Source: Prevotella sp. (GTDB lineage: Bacteria; Bacteroidota; Bacteroidia; Bacteroidales; Bacteroidaceae). From it: DNA of 46,747 nucleotides. Shown here one piece after another: positions 2,239 to 28,981 of the stretch. Every line of letters starts with the position of its first letter. Position 1 is the stretch's first letter. Both the position numbers and the translations under genes were made by a program. The stretch is from the NCBI GenBank assembly GCA_017467535.1, contig JAFUST010000019.1, forward strand, positions 1 through 46,747, in the 5' to 3' direction. The notes under the pieces are model-generated. The model saw only the letters and a program-made list of their open reading frames with translations, was not told the DNA's origin and did no database searches.

Positions 2239-4443
2239 CTACGAAATGGCGGCCCAATTAACATTTGTCTTGCGCAGTTCGCGCAGTCGGCTCCACAGCA
2301 TCTGGTACTTGTCCGACTGGCACAGCGGGTCTTCGTCGATGATTTTCTGGGCCTCGTCGCGGGCCATCTGCACCAGTTGGCCGTCGCGGGCAATGTTGGC
2401 AATCTTCAGGTCGAAGGCCATGCCGCTCTGCTGCGTGCCCTCCAGGTCGCCGGGGCCGCGCAGTTTGAGATCGGCCTCGGCGATGCGGAAGCCGTCATTG
2501 GTCTCGCACATGATGTCGATGCGCTTGCGGGTCTCCTCGCTTAGTTTGTAGTTGGTCACGAGGATACAGAAACTCTGGTCGGCACCGCGGCCCACGCGGC
2601 CTCGCAACTGGTGGAGTTGGCTGAGGCCGAAGCGCTGGGCGTCGAGGATGACCATCACCGAGGCGTTGGGCACGTTGACACCCACCTCGATGACCGTCGT
2701 GGCCACGAGAATCTGGGTCTCGCCGCTGACGAACTTCTGCATCTCGGCCTCCTTGTCCTTGGGCTTCATCTTGCCGTGCACCTTGCTCAGGCGGAACTCG
2801 GGGAAGGCCTCGCGTAACACCTCGAAGCCCTGCTCCAGATTCTTCAGGTCGCTCTTCGCACTTTCCTCAATCAGCGGGAAGACGATGTAGACCTGACGGC
2901 CCTCGCGAATCTGGCGGCGGATGCCGTCGTAGAGCGAGGTCATGCGGCTGTCGAAGACGTGGCTCGTCTGGATGGGCTTGCGGCCGGGCGGCAGTTCGTC
3001 GATGACGCTCACGTCCAGGTCGCCATAGAGCGTCATGGCCAGCGTGCGTGGAATGGGGGTGGCCGTCATGACCAGTACGTGGGGAAGAGACTCTCCCCCG
3101 GCCCCTCCCTGTGAGGGAGGGGAGTAGTTTGTTTCGCGATGGTTGAAGTTGGTGCTCACAGAGGTATCTGCTCCCCTCCCTGCGGGGAGGGGCTGGGGGA
3201 GGGTCTTTCCCCATAGTTTGGCGCGCTGGGCCACGCCGAAGCGGTGTTGCTCGTCGATGACCACCAGTCCGAGATGGGCGAACTGCACGGTGTCCTCGAT
3301 GATGGCGTGAGTGCCTACCAATATTTGCACCTCGCCGGAGAGCAGGCCGTCGAGCACCTCCTGACGCTTCTTGCCTTTTACGATGCCGGTGAGCAGTTCC
3401 ACGCGGATTGGCATGCCCTTCAGAAACTCGCGGATGGTGGCCAGATGCTGCTCGGCCAGTATCTCCGTGGGGGCCATGATGCAAGCCTGATAGCCGTTGT
3501 CCAGTGCGATGAGCATGGTCATGAGGGCCACCAGCGTCTTGCCGCTGCCCACGTCGCCCTGCAGCAGCCGGTTCATCTGCCGGCCGGAGCACAGGTCCTG
3601 GCGTATCTCGCGCATCACCCGCTTCTGGGCGCCGGTCAGCGAGAAGGGCAGGTTGTGGGCATAGAAGTCGTTGAAGATGTCGCCGATGCGATTGAAGACG
3701 AAACCGCCGTATTTGCGCCGCTGGTCGCTCGCGTACCTTAATATATTAAGTTGAACGAAGAAGAGTTCCTCGAACTTCATGCGGACACGGGCCCGCTCCA
3801 GGTCTTTGGTGTTTTGGGGGTAGTGCAGGGTGCGCAGGGCCAGGTCGCGCTCCATCAGGTGGAGCGGGGCCGTGATGAAGGGGGGAATGGTCTCGGGGAG
3901 CGGGTCCTTCAGTTGGGTGATGAGCGTCTTGGTCAGTCGCTCTACGGAACGGGAAGTCAGGCCGGCCTTCTTCATCTTCTCCGTGGTGTTGTAGTAGGGC
4001 TGCATGCCCATAGCGGTGGTGTCTACCTTCGAGGCATCGTCCAGGTCGGGATGCTGCACCTGTATGCGGTTGTTGAAGACCGACGGGCGCCCGAAGAGCA
4101 GATAGTCCTTGCCAATCAGGTAGTGCTGCTTGGCATATTTGCCGCCGTTGAACCACACGAGGTCCATGATTGCGGTGCCATCGGTGAAGTGAGCCACCAC
4201 ACGCTCCTTGCGCAGTCCCATCTCGAAGGTCTCGAAACTCAGGATGTGGCCCACCACCTGCACGAAGGGCATGTCGCCGGTCAGTTCGCGGATGGTGTAG
4301 ACCTTCGAGCGGTCCACGTATTTGTAGGGATAGTACTCGAGCAGGTCGCCAAAAGTCTCGATGCCGAGTTCCTGACTCAGCATCTTCCTGCGGTTGGGCC
4401 CCACGCCCGGCAGGTACTTGATGTCCTGTTCGAGGATGTTCAT
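2239..4443 (-). CDS. recG: ATP-dependent DNA helicase RecG
   Basis: Branch-migration helicase that reverses stalled forks and processes Holliday junctions. It has an N-terminal wedge/OB region (residues 1-250, starting LPGVGPNRRKML), Walker A GDVGSGKT at 296-303, DEQH at 397-400, TATP at 460-463, and a helicase C domain with QLRGRVGRG followed by the RecG tail. At 734 aa it is longer than the usual ~690-700. The excess is a glycine/proline-rich in-frame insert at about residues 415-453 (LPQPLPAGRG...SPPSQGGAGG), between motifs II and III. It is encoded by two inverted palindromic repeats (3089-3127, 3169-3207). E. coli RecG has only a short loop there. The helicase motifs are intact, so the protein is probably functional. 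Likely cotranscribed with ispD upstream. Confidence 0.95.
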   Translation of the reverse strand: MNILEQDIKYLPGVGPNRRKMLSQELGIETFGDLLEYYPYKYVDRSKVYTIRELTGDMPFVQVVGHILSFETFEMGLRKERVVAHFTDGTAIMDLVWFNGGKYAKQHYLIGKDYLLFGRPSVFNNRIQVQHPDLDDASKVDTTAMGMQPYYNTTEKMKKAGLTSRSVERLTKTLITQLKDPLPETIPPFITAPLHLMERDLALRTLHYPQNTKDLERARVRMKFEELFFVQLNILRYASDQRRKYGGFVFNRIGDIFNDFYAHNLPFSLTGAQKRVMREIRQDLCSGRQMNRLLQGDVGSGKTLVALMTMLIALDNGYQACIMAPTEILAEQHLATIREFLKGMPIRVELLTGIVKGKKRQEVLDGLLSGEVQILVGTHAIIEDTVQFAHLGLVVIDEQHRFGVAQRAKLWGKTLPQPLPAGRGADTSVSTNFNHRETNYSPPSQGGAGGESLPHVLVMTATPIPRTLAMTLYGDLDVSVIDELPPGRKPIQTSHVFDSRMTSLYDGIRRQIREGRQVYIVFPLIEESAKSDLKNLEQGFEVLREAFPEFRLSKVHGKMKPKDKEAEMQKFVSGETQILVATTVIEVGVNVPNASVMVILDAQRFGLSQLHQLRGRVGRGADQSFCILVTNYKLSEETRKRIDIMCETNDGFRIAEADLKLRGPGDLEGTQQSGMAFDLKIANIARDGQLVQMARDEAQKIIDEDPLCQSDKYQMLWSRLRELRKTNVNWAAIS
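3089..3207. repeat. Palindromic element pair inserted in frame in recG
   Basis: Two GC-rich palindromes in inverted orientation, 3089-3127 and 3169-3207, are separated by about 41 bp. Each has the build CTCCCCC-nn-CCCCTCC-loop-GGAGGGG-AG. The reverse complement of the right copy matches the left at most positions. The whole stretch is open in the recG frame and encodes the extra loop between helicase motifs II and III. The build matches the repeats at 24116-24157, 24574-24614 and 25181-25221, but no nuclease ORF lies between the ends here. Confidence 0.88.
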
Positions 4444-22359: not shown

Positions 22360-23076
22360 TTAAATCAGTTTTTTTGGCATTTTGGCCACGAAATCCTTCA
22401 AGTAGAAGGGCACGAAGTAGGCCACGTCCTCCGTCATGTTGTTCATCAGTCGCCGTTCGGCCAGCGGTTGCATCCACTTAGCCAGTGGCTCGATGCCCTC
22501 TATCAGATGGGCATTGGGGTGGTTGATGGTCTCCATGCACTTGGCGGCACCGTTGCCGAAGAAATAGACGGGATGCGCATCAAGCCAGGGCTTGTAAGTC
22601 TCGGCATCAACGACATCGGCACCCACGGGCCTGACGGGCTTCAGGGCACGATCGTAGATGCCGGCATAAACCTCCATCCGTCGGGCATCGATCATGGGGC
22701 AGAGCAGTGGCTCTTGATTGTTCGCTGTTGGTTCTTGGCTGTTGGTTACTAATTCTCTTAGCAGCACAGGTACGCACAGCAATTCCAGCGTGGGCACTCC
22801 AATCAGTTTCAGGTTGCGCCCGTAGCAGATGCCCTTGGCCATTGACACACCGATGCGCAGTCCTGTGTAGGAGCCTGGGCCACAACTGACGGCCACGGCA
22901 TCGAAGGGGATGGCGTGGTTGTCGGTGAACGAGAGAGCCTCGTCGACCATCGTCCCCAGCCGTTCGGCGTGGTTAGGCCCGCTGTGATCCTCTTGCTGGA
23001 AGATGACCTGCGAGTCTTCTGAAACGGCCACCGAGCACACGTCGGTGCTGGTTTCTATATGTAGTATACACGACAT
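22360..23076 (-). CDS. tsaB: tRNA threonylcarbamoyladenosine biosynthesis protein TsaB
   Basis: Non-catalytic partner of TsaD/TsaE in t6A37 synthesis. 238 aa, ASKHA fold. Conserved starts ILHIETSTDVCSVAVSE and VAVSCGPGSYTGLRIGVSMAKGICYG are present. Between ELLCVPVLLRELV and CPMIDARRMEVYAG lies an extra Asn/Gln/Pro-rich stretch, about residues 111-123 (TNSQEPTANNQEP), encoded by a heptad tandem repeat at 22711-22752. It replaces a loop that is normally short. First gene of a six-gene minus-strand operon, with a promoter at 23107-23115. Confidence 0.95.
   Translation of the reverse strand: MSCILHIETSTDVCSVAVSEDSQVIFQQEDHSGPNHAERLGTMVDEALSFTDNHAIPFDAVAVSCGPGSYTGLRIGVSMAKGICYGRNLKLIGVPTLELLCVPVLLRELVTNSQEPTANNQEPLLCPMIDARRMEVYAGIYDRALKPVRPVGADVVDAETYKPWLDAHPVYFFGNGAAKCMETINHPNAHLIEGIEPLAKWMQPLAERRLMNNMTEDVAYFVPFYLKDFVAKMPKKLI
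22711..22752. repeat. Heptanucleotide array read in frame in tsaB
   Basis: Phased heptads (TTGATTG, TTCGCTG, TTGGTTC, TTGGCTG, TTGGTTA) lie within the tsaB coding region. The array is about 42 nt, a multiple of three, so the frame is kept. Confidence 0.75.
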
Positions 23077-23106
23077 TTCTTTATATCTTATATATAATAA
23101 TGAGGT

Positions 23107-23115
23107 GCAAAGTTA
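23107..23115 (-). promoter_or_regulatory. Promoter -7 box for the tsaB-to-rseP operon
   Basis: On the minus strand TAACTTTGC, 31 bp before the tsaB ATG (23076). Confidence 0.68.
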
Positions 23116-23176
23116 TGCATTTTTCCCCAAACTTCCGTTGTTTTTAGAAAAATTATCATTTCTTCCCGCTCTTGCG

Positions 23177-23208
23177 TTGGCTTTTTGAAGATTTTTCCGT
23201 AATTTTGC
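23177..23208 (+). promoter_or_regulatory. Promoter (-33 TTG and -7 box) for yicC
   Basis: TTGG at 23177-23180, a 20-bp spacer and TAATTTTGC at 23200-23208. The yicC ATG is at 23235. Confidence 0.72.
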
Positions 23209-23234
23209 TGCGATAAAATCAATAACCGAAAGAA

Positions 23235-24110
23235 ATGATACAATCAATGACCGGCTACGGCAAGGCAGTCGTAGCATTCAAGGATAAGAAGATCAGTGCA
23301 GAAATCAAATCGCTTAACTCGAAGCAACTGGATCTTCAGACACGCATTGCCCCGCTCTATCGTGAGAAGGAAATGGAGATCCGTCAGATGATCTCCACGG
23401 CATTGGAACGTGGCAAGGTGGACTTTGCCCTCTGGATAGAGAAGGATACGGGCGTGGATGCCACGCCGGTGAACGGCGCATTGGTGGAGAACTACTACCG
23501 TCAGTTGAAGGCCGTGGCTGAGAAGGTGGGCATCCCTGAGCCAGAAGACTGGATGTACACGCTGACCCGTATGCCCGATGTGCTGACCAAGACCGAGCAG
23601 GAGGTGCTCAGCGACGAAGAGTGGGTGGCTGCCCGTCAGGCTGTTGAGCAGGCCATCGCGGCACTGGTGGACTTCCGCAAACAGGAGGGTGCTGCTCTGG
23701 AGAAGAAATTCGCAGAGAAGATAGACAACATCGAACGCCTGCTGGCAGAGATAGAGCCTTACGAGAAGAGCCGGGTGGAGAAGATTCGCCAGCGCATCGT
23801 GGAGGGCTTGCAGCAGATTCCCGGCGTAGACTACGACAAGAACCGTCTGGAGCAGGAACTCATCTACTACATCGAGAAACTGGATATCAGCGAGGAGAAA
23901 CAGCGACTGACCAATCATCTGAAGTATTTCCGTGAGACGATGGCCAATGGTCACGGTCAGGGCAAGAAGTTGGGTTTCATCGCCCAGGAGATGGGCCGCG
24001 AGATCAATACCACCGGTTCGAAGTCGAATCAGGCCGAGATGCAGAACATCGTTGTCCAGATGAAGGACGAGTTGGAGCAAATCAAGGAACAGGTTTTAAA
24101 CGCATTGTAG
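23235..24110 (+). CDS. YicC/YloC family endoribonuclease
   Basis: 291 aa. N-terminal YicC domain (MIQSMTGYGKAVVAFKDKKISAEIKSLNSKQLDL) and C-terminal DUF1732 (LKYFRETMANGHGQGKKLGFIAQEMGREINTTGSKSNQ). Family members have been reported to act as, or with, RNases in mRNA or sRNA turnover. The gene lies directly upstream of guanylate kinase, an arrangement conserved in many bacteria (yicC-gmk), but here a DUF559-bearing element has been inserted between the two. The stop is 5 bp before that element. Confidence 0.93.
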   Translation: MIQSMTGYGKAVVAFKDKKISAEIKSLNSKQLDLQTRIAPLYREKEMEIRQMISTALERGKVDFALWIEKDTGVDATPVNGALVENYYRQLKAVAEKVGIPEPEDWMYTLTRMPDVLTKTEQEVLSDEEWVAARQAVEQAIAALVDFRKQEGAALEKKFAEKIDNIERLLAEIEPYEKSRVEKIRQRIVEGLQQIPGVDYDKNRLEQELIYYIEKLDISEEKQRLTNHLKYFRETMANGHGQGKKLGFIAQEMGREINTTGSKSNQAEMQNIVVQMKDELEQIKEQVLNAL

Positions 24111-24115
24111 GGGGG

Positions 24116-24614
24116 GCCTCCCCCAACCCCTCCGAAGGAGGGGAGTGGTCTGGCGCACGCCAAATTATGAAAAAAGACGCATATTACGGATACGAAACTG
24201 CAGGAGTAAACTATAATGTCCTCCGTAGATACTCAAAAGATAATCGGCGATATATGACTCCTGCAGAGTCTGCATTATGGGAAGTGTTACGTGGAAAACA
24301 GTTCGGTTATCGATTTAGGCGACAGCATCCCATTGGCGATTATATTCCAGATTTCGTCTGTTTACCTAAACGTCTTGTTATTGAAGTCGATGGCGGCTAT
24401 CATTTTATTGGCGACCAACAGTTAAGTGATCAAGAGCGTACGGAATATCTGAATCAGCATGGATTTGAAGTGCTGCGTTTTACAAATGATGAAGTGATTG
24501 GCAATACTGAACAAATAATTAAAAAGATACAATTGGTTATGGACAAACAACCCACTATTAAAACAAATGACAGTGCGCCAGCCACTCCCCTCCTCCGGAG
24601 GGGTCGGGGGAGGC
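24116..24614. mobile_element. DUF559-carrying palindromic element with inverted ends
   Basis: A 499-bp unit is bounded by inverted, internally palindromic ends: 24116-24157 (GCCTCCCCCAACCCCTCC, GAA, GGAGGGGAGTGG..TGGCGCA) and 24574-24614 (reverse complement, differing at a few positions). Inside is an AT-richer ORF (ATG at 24167) encoding a DUF559 nuclease-like domain. It is open through the right end into guanylate kinase. The right end is 39/41 identical to the solo repeat at 25181-25221. The recG pair (3089-3207) shares the build without the ORF. The unit looks like an autonomous member of a repeat family, with shorter non-autonomous members nearby. Confidence 0.8.
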
Positions 24615-25174
24615 TTCTGATTTTTTCGGCTCCTTCGGGCAGTGGCAAGTCGACCATCGTGCAGTGGCTGATGCAGGAGCATCCAGAGTTGAATCTTTCA
24701 TTTTCTATTTCATGTACCTCCCGAGCACCGCGTGGTACGGAGCAGAATGGGGTAGAGTACTTCTTCCTGACTCCAGAAGCCTTTAAAGAGAAGATTGCCA
24801 ACGGGGAGTTTCTGGAATACGAAGAGGTGTATGAGAATCGCTTCTATGGCACGCTGAAGGCACAGGTGGAACGCCAGCGTGAGGCTGGTCAGAATGTGAT
24901 TTTTGACGTTGACGTGAAAGGTGGCGTGAATATCAAGAAGTTCTATGGTGAGGATGCTTTGAGCGTGTTTATACAGCCCCCTTCTATTGAAGAACTTCGA
25001 AAGAGACTAATAGGGAGGGGAACAGATACTATAGAGGCTATCGAGACAAGGCTGGCAAAAGCCTCTTACGAACTGACCTTTGCTAACCAGTTTGACAAAA
25101 TAATAGTAAATGACAATTTGGAATTAGCAAAACAGAATACATTACAGGTTTTAGAAAAGTTTCTGAATGGATAG
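24167..25174 (+). CDS. gmk: DUF559 nuclease-like domain fused to guanylate kinase
   Basis: 335 aa in two parts. Residues 1-130 are a DUF559 domain (Vsr/YcjD-like, PD-(D/E)xK fold): FGYRFRRQHPIGDYIPDFVC and RLVIEVDGGYH give candidate catalytic Asp62, Glu73 and Asp75. Residues 136-150 (SAPATPLLRRGRGRL) are encoded by a palindromic repeat. From about 151 comes a complete guanylate kinase (GMP plus ATP gives GDP plus ADP) with P-loop SAPSGSGKST, the SCTSRAPRGTEQNGVEYFF GMP-binding motif and RLIGRGTDT lid. Gmk normally starts just before LIIFSAPSGSGK, so its own start codon has been lost, and an essential enzyme depends on the DUF559 start or an internal start. Overlaps nadD by 8 bp. Confidence 0.93.
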   Translation: MKKDAYYGYETAGVNYNVLRRYSKDNRRYMTPAESALWEVLRGKQFGYRFRRQHPIGDYIPDFVCLPKRLVIEVDGGYHFIGDQQLSDQERTEYLNQHGFEVLRFTNDEVIGNTEQIIKKIQLVMDKQPTIKTNDSAPATPLLRRGRGRLLIFSAPSGSGKSTIVQWLMQEHPELNLSFSISCTSRAPRGTEQNGVEYFFLTPEAFKEKIANGEFLEYEEVYENRFYGTLKAQVERQREAGQNVIFDVDVKGGVNIKKFYGEDALSVFIQPPSIEELRKRLIGRGTDTIEAIETRLAKASYELTFANQFDKIIVNDNLELAKQNTLQVLEKFLNG

Positions 25175-25784
25175 CATTATTGCGCCAGCCTCTCCCCTCC
25201 TTCGGAGGGGTCGGGGGAGGCTTGGCATCTTCGGAGGATCGTTTAATCCCATCCACGTCGGCCACATCGCGCTGGCCAGAGAACTCCGGCGAATGGCGGG
25301 ACTCGATGAGGTGTGGCTGATGGTGTCGCCGCAGAACCCGCTGAAGCAGGGCAACAGCGACCTGCTGGATGACCAGTTGCGCTATCAGATGGCGCGCATC
25401 GCCCTGTATGGCGAGGAGGGCATCGTGGCCTCCGACTACGAACTGCACCTGCCCCGGCCTTCCTATACCTGGAACACGCTGCAGCATCTGAAGGAAGATT
25501 ATCCCCATCACGAATTCACGCTTTTGATTGGCGGCGACAACTGGCAACTCTTTCCTCGCTGGTATAGGGCGGATGATATCCTGCGGGAATTCCGGATCGT
25601 GGTCTATCCGCGACGGGGCAGCGACATCGACCGCACACAATTGCCTCAGAATGTCCGGGTGGTCGACACGGAGTTGCTCGATGTGAGCAGCACGGAGATA
25701 CGCTGTCGGGTGAACGATGGCTCGGATGTCACCGGACTTGTGCCTGTTGTCATTGAGCCTTTGGTGAAGTATTGTTATAGGTGA
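25167..25784 (+). CDS. nadD: Nicotinate-nucleotide adenylyltransferase
   Basis: Transfers AMP to nicotinate mononucleotide in NAD synthesis. 205 aa. GGSFNPIHVGH (23-33) holds the HxGH nucleotidyltransferase motif; later come LLIGGDNW and VSSTEIR. NadD proteins normally begin one or two residues before the GIFGGSFNP segment. Here about 18 residues (MDSIIAPASPLLRRGRGR) precede it, of which APASPLLRRGRGRL is encoded by the solo palindromic repeat 25181-25221. The peptide is almost the same as the linker in the upstream Gmk fusion. NadK is encoded at 5894. The 3' end overlaps the convergent glycosyltransferase by 35 bp. Confidence 0.95.
   Translation: MDSIIAPASPLLRRGRGRLGIFGGSFNPIHVGHIALARELRRMAGLDEVWLMVSPQNPLKQGNSDLLDDQLRYQMARIALYGEEGIVASDYELHLPRPSYTWNTLQHLKEDYPHHEFTLLIGGDNWQLFPRWYRADDILREFRIVVYPRRGSDIDRTQLPQNVRVVDTELLDVSSTEIRCRVNDGSDVTGLVPVVIEPLVKYCYR
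25181..25221. repeat. Solo palindromic repeat in the nadD 5' coding region
   Basis: A 41-bp copy (TGCGCCAGCC...GGGGGAGGC) is 39/41 identical to the right end of the DUF559 element 600 bp upstream and in the same orientation. It is in frame with nadD, adding about 14 codons. Confidence 0.9.
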
Positions 25785-26703
25785 AGATCTGTCTGGACCT
25801 CATGCGCAACCATTTTTTGTAGAGGTGAATCGGCAGGTAGGCCGCACGGGGAGGAAGGGCAAACATCATTCGGTCTAGCAAGGGTATTTGCGGGTTGAGG
25901 TGACCTTTCAGCGAGTGGTAGTAGTCTTTGTAGACATGGAACTGCTGCTCGTCGATGAACACCTCATAAGCCTTGAGTTGATGCAACTGATACCACGGCT
26001 CTATTTCTGGCCACAACGGCTGGAGCGATTCCCGTAACACCTGGTCGTAGGTCATCTCGTGGCGTAGTGGCTTTTTGCGGGTGTTGGGCAGTCCCTGCAC
26101 GTAGAGGTAGTTGCTATGGTCGGCACAAAAGATACGCGGTTGCTTGACCAAAGCCCGGATGTGGGTAAGGATGTCTTCACCAATGATGATTTCTCGGGTG
26201 AAGTTAAGGCAGCCCTCAAGCAGTTCTTTCCTGAACAAGATGCCCCACAGGGGCTGGAAGGAGTTCTTGGTACCCAGATAGTTCTTGATGATATCACGAT
26301 AGTCAACGACTCCTCGGTAGCCGGAGTCGAAAATGTCGCCATTCTGGTTCTGATAGAGGGCAATCACCTCGTCTACATCCTGACTGACGATGAGGTCGTA
26401 GGATTGTCTCAGGGCGTTGGGCAGCAGTTCGTCGTCAGCATCCAGGAACATCACATATTTTCCGGTAGCGCGTTCCAGTCCGGTGCGCCGCGCTGCCGTC
26501 ACCCCGCCGTTCTCCGTATGAACCACCCTCAGCCGGTGGTCTTTGGCAGCCGCCCTGTCGCAGAGGACTCCCGACGAATCGGTAGAGCCGTCATCAACGG
26601 CTATCACTTCGAAGGAATCGAAGTCTTGCGACAGCGTCTGTTCCAGACAATGCTTTATGAAGGGCTCCTTGTTGTAGAGGGGAATGATGACAGATATTTC
26701 CAT
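25750..26703 (-). CDS. Glycosyltransferase family 2
   Basis: 317 aa from the ATG at 26703 (MEISVIIPLYNKEPFIKHCLEQ). Upstream in-frame codons are an out-of-frame reading of the flippase gene. The GT-A fold motifs are VIAVDDGSTDSSG, GGVTAARRTGLERATGKYVMFLDADDELLP (DxD equivalent DADD) and a later WGILFRKELLE. It transfers an unknown sugar to a surface glycan intermediate. It touches the flippase stop (one shared base) and is probably cotranscribed with it. No membrane helix; cytoplasmic. Confidence 0.92.
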   Translation of the reverse strand: MEISVIIPLYNKEPFIKHCLEQTLSQDFDSFEVIAVDDGSTDSSGVLCDRAAAKDHRLRVVHTENGGVTAARRTGLERATGKYVMFLDADDELLPNALRQSYDLIVSQDVDEVIALYQNQNGDIFDSGYRGVVDYRDIIKNYLGTKNSFQPLWGILFRKELLEGCLNFTREIIIGEDILTHIRALVKQPRIFCADHSNYLYVQGLPNTRKKPLRHEMTYDQVLRESLQPLWPEIEPWYQLHQLKAYEVFIDEQQFHVYKDYYHSLKGHLNPQIPLLDRMMFALPPRAAYLPIHLYKKWLRMRSRQIFTYNNTSPKAQ

Positions 26704-28204: not shown

Positions 28205-28981
28205 ATGAGACAGATAACCGATATTCAGGAACTGCGACAGTTGCAGATGGGCATTCTCCAGAGTGTCCACGACTATTGCCAAGCCCACGCCCTGTGCTAT
28301 TTCATTTCAAGCGGCACGCTGATCGGGGCGGTGCGCCATGGGGGCTATATTCCCTGGGATGACGACATCGACATCTACATGCCTCGTCAGGACTACGAGA
28401 AGTTCATACGAACCTATCACGATACCAACTACCGTGTGCTGAACCCCGATGTGGAGCCTCATTATTATTATACCTTTGCCAAGGTCACCGATGAGCGCAC
28501 CAAGATGTACGAGACCGAGACCGTGGGCTATGAGGTGGGGGTCTATATTGATGTGTTTCCCGTCGACTATGTGCCCGACGACCAGAAAGAACGTGAGCGG
28601 GTTTTCAAGCGCAAGAAACTGCTCTACAAGATCCGTCGCTGCAAAATCTCGAATACCAATCCGCTGGATTCGCGCCTGGGCTACTATTTCTATAGGTTCC
28701 TGCCCGTGAGCGTGAAGCAGTTGGAGCGCCGTATTCGCAAACTCATCGTCTCCGAGCAGCCCACTCAGACGGTCTGTCATATGACCGAGGCCGGACCGGG
28801 TGTCAAGGCTTGCTTCCCTGCTGCCGACATTGCATCGCAGGTGGACATCCAGTTCGAGGGACGCACGTTTAAGACGATGGTGGGCTATAAGGACTACTTG
28901 GAGCATACCTATGGCGACTATATGACGCTGCCCCCTGAAGATCAGCGCGTCACCCATAAGTTCAAGGCTTACTGGCTGTAA
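28205..28981 (+). CDS. LicD family phosphotransferase
   Basis: 258 aa from the ATG at 28205 (MRQITDIQELRQLQMGILQSVHDYCQAH), chosen because earlier in-frame codons overlap the promoter. The nucleotidyltransferase-fold motifs are YFISSGTLIGAVRHGGYIPWDDDIDIYMPRQDYEKF (DDDID metal site) and VYIDVFPVDYVPDD. LicD proteins attach phosphocholine or related phospho-substituents to surface glycans; which group is used here is unknown. A 23-bp tandem duplication spans its 3' end and repeats FKAYWL-stop. Confidence 0.92.
   Translation: MRQITDIQELRQLQMGILQSVHDYCQAHALCYFISSGTLIGAVRHGGYIPWDDDIDIYMPRQDYEKFIRTYHDTNYRVLNPDVEPHYYYTFAKVTDERTKMYETETVGYEVGVYIDVFPVDYVPDDQKERERVFKRKKLLYKIRRCKISNTNPLDSRLGYYFYRFLPVSVKQLERRIRKLIVSEQPTQTVCHMTEAGPGVKACFPAADIASQVDIQFEGRTFKTMVGYKDYLEHTYGDYMTLPPEDQRVTHKFKAYWL

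Follow-up and report, generated by a model that had tools for sequence, protein, structure and literature searches.

BoxC, PIT and triplex repeats have been known since the 1990s. The intrastrand-triplex motif, CCCTCNCCC N3-6 GGGNGAGGG N3 GGGNGAGGG, was found by Holder et al. in 2015 in 262 proteobacterial genomes, varies between strains and in its E. coli form adopts a triplex in vitro, and all five inverted pairs of E. coli K-12 combine an A and a B type; that study reports no mobility gene near it (PMC4666352). In the REPIN/RAYT system (REPtrons, GTAG REPs), short palindromes form inverted pairs, an enzyme gene lies between the same palindromes, and a genome carries several families, each beside its own enzyme (PMC3116915, PMC3733652). 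Palindromic repeats lying in frame in protein-coding genes are described for the Rickettsia palindromic elements (RPE; as cited in PMC3733652). In EDxHD/Vsr-like homing endonucleases (3r3p) the nuclease is the sole gene of a mobile unit, and in MITEs short inverted-repeat derivatives depend on a full-length, autonomous insertion sequence.

The locus described here, in which a DUF559 nuclease gene lies between hairpin ends, shares features with each of these. As in REPIN/RAYT, the enzyme gene is flanked by inverted palindromes that are also dispersed in the genome; however, the enzyme is DUF559/Vsr-like with no HUH/Y1 match in Pfam, the ends are of a three-block, triplex type instead of GTAG hairpins (no terminal GTAG tag was seen by eye, the ends beginning AGACTC..., GCC... 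or CCCTCAC...), and copies also lie in frame inside genes. The system works like RAYT/REPIN yet is not a member of it, because both enzyme and tag differ. The three-block build, the inverted pairs of two end types and the strain-to-strain instability are those of BoxC/PIT/TM-ECO, the ends in our sequence having BoxC's three blocks in different letters; BoxC/PIT/TM-ECO is described without a mobility gene in PMC4666352, whereas the repeats here are tied to DUF559 (ycjD in E. coli). The likeness to RPE is one of description, and the portion of PMC3733652 concerned mentions no nuclease gene between their ends. The homing endonucleases are related to the present nuclease by profile, but the unit here has hairpin ends and dependents and occupies many unrelated sites. 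In contrast to MITEs with their insertion sequence, Pfam matched no transposase of known class in the unit, and no target duplication was seen at the three sites compared.

The nuclease unit at gmk and its repeat families

The window, that is, the whole stretch of 46,747 nucleotides from a Prevotella sp. (contig JAFUST010000019.1), contains the features listed in Table 1. The original prediction, that an ORF with a DUF559 domain lies between inverted palindromic ends, proved sound: the arms at 24116-24148 and 24582-24614 are 33 nt long and 94% complementary, and the core end pattern occurs three times in the window and in none of 100 shuffles. What had been overlooked is that DUF559 and gmk share one open frame, in which the right palindrome is translated (...APATPLLRRGRGRLLIFSAPSG...); Pfam places DUF559 at residues 20-124 (E 1.5e-32) and Guanylate_kin at residues 148-330 (E 2.7e-42) of the 335-residue product. 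Translation of the gmk part alone could begin at a further in-frame ATG downstream, at 24539, which would give it an N-terminal extension derived from the element. The upstream gene is presumably yicC. No Rfam family was found at 23000-26000.

Table 1 Features of the nuclease unit and related repeats (positions in the window)
Feature	Position	Strand	Remarks
recG, 734 aa	2239..4443	-	frame open through the insertion
ORF-less convergent pair, second repeat family	3089..3207		in frame inside recG, between the DEQHRFG and MTATPIPRT motifs
Upstream gene	23235..24110	+	stop codon, then the element directly
Left end	24116..24157	-	three blocks GCCTCCCCC-AA-CCCCTCC-loop-GGAGGGG; outer block toward upstream gene; inner tag CTGGCGCA
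DUF559 (Vsr-like / PD-(D/E)xK) nuclease part	24167..24541	+	Pfam PF04480, E 1.5e-32
Continuous 335-aa frame, DUF559 + right end + guanylate kinase	24167..25174	+	
Right end, inverted relative to left end	24574..24614	+	translated in the gmk frame
gmk (guanylate kinase)	24614..25174	+	element stands in for the native start
nadD (name from the original prediction)	25167..25784	+	carries the solo copy; Pfam CTP_transf_like, E 1.4e-21
Solo right-end copy	25181..25221	+	in frame, 5' part of nadD; includes inner tag GCGCCAGCC

The solo end that had been claimed in the 5' coding region of nadD is present as well, the right end recurring at 25181-25223 with 95% identity over 43 nt, and it is also in frame; nadD of some relatives is without the solo copy, and solo ends in nadD occur in two further genomes of the genus (G379 and G303). 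The recG pair had been taken for the same build without the ORF. The build is indeed the same, but the family is not, since the left end of this pair matches perfectly the pattern (C4-type) that both ends of another DUF559 gene, on contig C4, match with 0 mismatches; a single family for the recG and gmk repeats is thereby ruled out. Within the window, in-frame copies are carried by three coding genes, recG, gmk and nadD.

As to the enzyme, a profile of DUF559 relatives searched against the PDB matched an endonuclease-like protein (3hrl, E 1.2e-30) and a mobile intron protein (3r3p, E 9.5e-7), the family of which we take to be I-Bth0305I. Residues E34, D62, E73, D75, H79 and D88 were invariant in alignments of 14 and 32 sequences. 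The Vsr model TIGR00632 scored 21 bits, below its curated cut-off of 97.85, and in the nuclease part Pfam matched DUF559 and, more weakly and below cut-off, MTES_1575, with no Y1/HUH family.

Three DUF559 genes are present in the source genome (2.39 Mb, 79% complete), and the inverted palindromes around each differ in sequence from those around the others. The gmk-type pattern has seven perfect matches in this genome, the unit's own two ends counted, the C88-type pattern nine, and the C4-type pattern, taken from the recG left end, 42 at up to 3 mismatches, the recG pair's own right end not among them. Neighbouring C4-type copies within 500 bp are arranged convergently in 14 cases, divergently in 0 and in tandem in 2, and the widest convergent pair, with 432 bp inside, contains DUF559. 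Nine of 11 ORF-less C4-family elements (10 of the 14 convergent pairs plus that in recG) sit in a spanning frame of at least 160 codons, although a frame alone is no proof of a gene. Judged by these pattern matches, the same families also occur scattered through the genome as pairs lacking an ORF and as single ends, some of them in frame within genes.

Two further arrangements may be recorded here. At positions 28535-28725 of source-genome contig C71 (L318), two convergent ends enclose about 120 bp of coding-like sequence, presumably the first codons of an aminotransferase, so that solo ends lying near each other may frame host DNA. In genus genomes G016 and G303, the end repeat forms tandem arrays with periods of 44, 57 or 66 bp.

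Three-block ends at DUF559 loci in other bacteria

The original prediction could be checked by asking whether such ends accompany DUF559 elsewhere, and they do. A motif of three blocks, namely a pyrimidine block, a spacer and a pyrimidine hairpin, was sought in a fixed strict form on both sides of DUF559 genes in any orientation, and was found on both flanks of 136 of 178 distinct loci (182 minus four near-identical ones) as against 3 of 496 displaced controls; in a relaxed form it was found at 154 of the 178. Among the 182, 42 loci failed the strict and 24 the relaxed both-sides motif. The strict form was seen at 58 of 75 loci from named genomes (controls 3/335), which are the best 80 of at least 563 relatives less 5 with short flanks; at 62 of 79 loci from the genus and order (controls 0/114), a set that omits six partial DUF559 hits (L037-L042), nine duplicates and two short-flank loci; and at 20 of 28 gammaproteobacterial loci (controls 0/47), one of 29 having been dropped. 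The corresponding relaxed counts are 68/75, 70/79 and 20/28, with 5, 0 and 1 controls. The best inverted repeat between the flanks likewise exceeded the maximum of 68 displaced controls at 38 of the 75 named loci, and the control maximum of 30 (92 windows) at 22 of the 28 gammaproteobacterial ones. Terminators or chance as the source of the motif are ruled out by the shuffles and the displaced controls. All loci were collected with DUF559 as bait, and other genes between such ends would escape notice.

The pairing extends over several bacterial phyla. By eye, the motif stood on both sides at six of nine plasmid loci fetched from 43 matched records, these six being from Sphingomonas, Picosynechococcus, Synechocystis, Pseudanabaena and two Deinococcus; plasmid DUF559 genes of Azospirillum and Methylobacterium had hairpins on the left side only, and that of Thermoactinomyces had no such ends. 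In gammaproteobacterial loci L158-L186 the outer block of the nearest motif often faces the DUF559 gene, i.e., the other way round. Some of these loci show a second, oppositely oriented unit further out, and on the Pseudanabaena plasmid (L246) two nested units, GCCCCCTAAATCCCCCAATTCTGGGGGACTT and its inverted partner, occur on each side of DUF559; repeats of this kind are abundant in cyanobacteria. In Legionella anisa (G060) ten hits to DUF559 were obtained, several of which are fragments or contain stop codons, and an inverted repeat of about 147 bp surrounds one copy.

The relation between nuclease and ends was examined within one genus, at 60 loci that were selected from 31 genomes because their inverted repeat was clear. 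For DUF559 pairs of the same genome with less than 60% identity, the median end similarity was 0.274 (66 pairs), which did not differ from the baseline of 0.289 for pairs from different genomes (1617 pairs, p 0.77); for pairs from different genomes with at least 60% identity, it rose to 0.644 (86 pairs, p 3e-19), the pair counts being mutually dependent and some of the 86 pairs sharing a locus. Among 22 related pairs chosen by hand from the tree, nine share a locus (end similarity 0.83), and 13 have flanks that, over 600-1300 bp, match weakly or show no homology (median 0.73). The ends thus being alike also at unrelated loci, shared host or locus as the sole cause of their likeness is ruled out. 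A Mantel test of nuclease against ends gave rho 0.32 (p 0.001; 94 of 155 loci) and, within Gammaproteobacteria, a weak rho of 0.18 (p 0.05, n=17). On these similarity measures, the ends track the lineage of the nuclease and not the host, and each nuclease and its cognate ends move together. Of 94 ends, 75 could be decomposed, and in these the mirror identity between outer block and hairpin strand was 0.855, against 0.797 after shuffling (z 5.8), a symmetry expected of a triplex-forming repeat.

Insertion alleles, copy number and the BoxC repeats of E. coli

The original prediction had further asked whether the DUF559 ORF and the repeats arrived independently. Like the check on other DUF559 loci, the comparison at gmk did not refute the prediction: a gmk match was obtained in 112 of 120 genomes of the genus, and among the best 30 matching loci, which were fetched, the whole unit of both ends and DUF559 precedes gmk in seven, whereas none was seen by eye within 110 nt before gmk in the other 23; the lengths of open frames suggest about five more units at the remaining loci. 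The element here starts directly at, or a few bases past, the upstream stop codon and replaces the native start. In the tree, the eight DUF559 genes situated at gmk require at least two origins, few columns being available and many forks unresolved. In recG of ten relatives fetched, the element is absent in all ten; four codons stand in its place in eight and longer loops in two, and because of this variation in loop length a 12-nt replacement at recG is not firm.

Across 120 genus genomes, at least ten gmk-type copies (up to 2 mismatches) were counted in 21 of 62 genomes with a strong DUF559 hit, in 1 of 49 without one and in 0 of 9 with weak hits, the pattern catching some other families as well and kinship being ignored; one genome (G363) has 13 copies though it is without DUF559.

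In E. coli K-12, ycjD is a DUF559 gene, and a BoxC lies between ycjD and fabI, 165 bp past the ycjD stop; the BoxC stands on the right only, with none on the left. The BoxC pattern is matched there and at ilvC-ppiC if up to 3 substitutions and loops a little wider are allowed. At the ycjD start (L045 4757-4801) a palindrome with perfect 16-bp arms (CACCTCATTCTGACAA...TTGTCAGAATGAGGTG) was observed in the place of a left BoxC. The gene is present in 3365 of 5426 complete E. coli genomes. It marks E. coli groups A, B1 and C, other groups having eefRABCD at the same position (PMC12817139). When 60 records were taken evenly from 5411 with a match and one partial record (1 place) was dropped, the 37 with ycjD had 14-34 BoxC-type places and the 22 without it 2-20 (p 4e-9), with medians of 21 (ycjD's own subtracted) and 6, a gap that is confounded with phylogroup because ycjD marks groups A, B1 and C. 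E. coli Nissle is without ycjD, the region being rearranged.

Individual BoxC places also differ between strains. The ilvC-ppiC BoxC of K-12 is absent in a shorter allele in 17 of 39 chromosome rows (from a sample of 40), and three short alleles aligned have 14 bp where K-12 has 55 bp, with no duplication. The alleles at yhjE-yhjG and barA-gudD are block replacements with other sequence, and the repeats at tldD-aaeR and zntA-tusA are nearly fixed. Depending on the strain, the yhjE-yhjG site (L262, L263, L253) was observed to hold a BoxC pair, a second repeat that we take to be REP-like, or a short allele. Three sites were compared for target duplication, ilvC-ppiC (within the species), recG and gmk, and none was seen; a clean insertion with target duplication is ruled out at ilvC-ppiC and recG, where target bases are replaced instead. 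As judged from these alignments, insertion swaps out a short target stretch with no visible duplication at the sites compared.

Predicted mechanism, competing explanations and significance

Taken as sequence evidence, the results give good support to the system originally proposed, in which mobile repeats comprise an autonomous member that carries the nuclease, and pairs and solos that depend on it. We consider it quite probable that this is a mobile element with DUF559 as its sole gene and inverted hairpin or triplex-type ends, whose nuclease would mobilise the dependents. The RAYT-like role originally suggested for DUF559 gains support from the cognate pairing of enzyme and ends and from the association with copy number, and we infer that movement driven by DUF559 itself is the best explanation. 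In the predicted mechanism, DUF559 would recognise its own end when this is extruded as a hairpin or triplex, e.g., on the lagging strand, and would nick or cut there; repair of a break elsewhere may then take up the released or copied ends, and this would account for the short length of target that is replaced. The complete unit would be the autonomous member, the pairs and solos dependents mobilised in trans, and the BoxC/PIT/triplex repeats of E. coli dependents of YcjD-type nucleases. In the open PMC papers searched, no description linking DUF559 to such repeats was found, in agreement with what had been claimed.

It may be supposed that some other enzyme, for example a transposase of Y1/RAYT or IS type acting in trans, moves the repeats and that DUF559 is captured cargo; the hairpin ends do look like the substrates of REP systems, REPs are known to occur inside genes and those of the CGTC type have no transposase assigned to them (PMC3733652), and repeated segments of L. 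pneumophila containing DUF559 together with a transposase are recombination hotspots in an evolution experiment (PMC12308824). This explanation appears unlikely, however, given that DUF559 recurs between such ends in several phyla (at loci found by DUF559 bait), that the ends follow the nuclease lineage rather than the host also at unrelated loci, and that cargo would not predict one end family per nuclease inside one genome. Quite improbable, too, is a homing-type process, in which DUF559 cuts the empty allele, the filled allele is copied by recombination and the palindromes protect or mark the edges. The relation to the mobile-intron protein 3r3p, the repeated occupation of the yicC-gmk junction, from two or more origins, and the replacement instead of duplication of the target would all fit such a process, but 13 of the 22 chosen related pairs lie at unrelated loci rather than at one cognate target site, some genomes have tens of dispersed copies, and homing alone spreads no solos.

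That DUF559 acts on its own as a Vsr-like repair nuclease, or as a nuclease controlling hairpin repeats, with the nearby repeats serving as immobile binding or regulatory sites, seems very improbable. A DUF559 protein of Caulobacter, VsrA, is needed for an SOS response in cells without a methyltransferase, and its authors propose a role in mismatch repair (PMC12907096); the weak match to the vsr model points the same way. Movement is nevertheless indicated by the presence/absence alleles of E. coli, the in-frame insertions and the related units at different loci. Least credible of all is that the repeats are ordinary transcription terminators or GC-rich sequences arising from chance or assembly, even though GC-rich hairpins are common beside genes: the shuffles and displaced controls described above speak against it, copies lie inside reading frames with the frame kept, the repeats are also present in the finished K-12 genome, and Rfam has no family for the region around the unit.

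Returning to movement driven by DUF559, we lean towards the view that such nucleases may be the enzymes, hitherto missing, that mobilise intrastrand-triplex repeats, namely BoxC/PIT and their kin in Bacteroidota, Proteobacteria, Cyanobacteria and Deinococcota. Such elements would make up a class apart from the known transposases and recombinases, with a Vsr-like nuclease that spreads a triplex or hairpin substrate, also in frame into essential proteins. Given a cognate nuclease, the origin of the BoxC/PIT/triplex repeats becomes open to test in E. coli K-12 through a single gene, ycjD. If true, the finding would mean that a further class of enzyme can spread short repeats, the widespread domain of unknown function DUF559 would gain a function, and additional peptide segments would have a recurrent path into conserved proteins such as RecG, guanylate kinase and NadD; it would also point to the agent behind bacterial repeats whose spread has long been without explanation.
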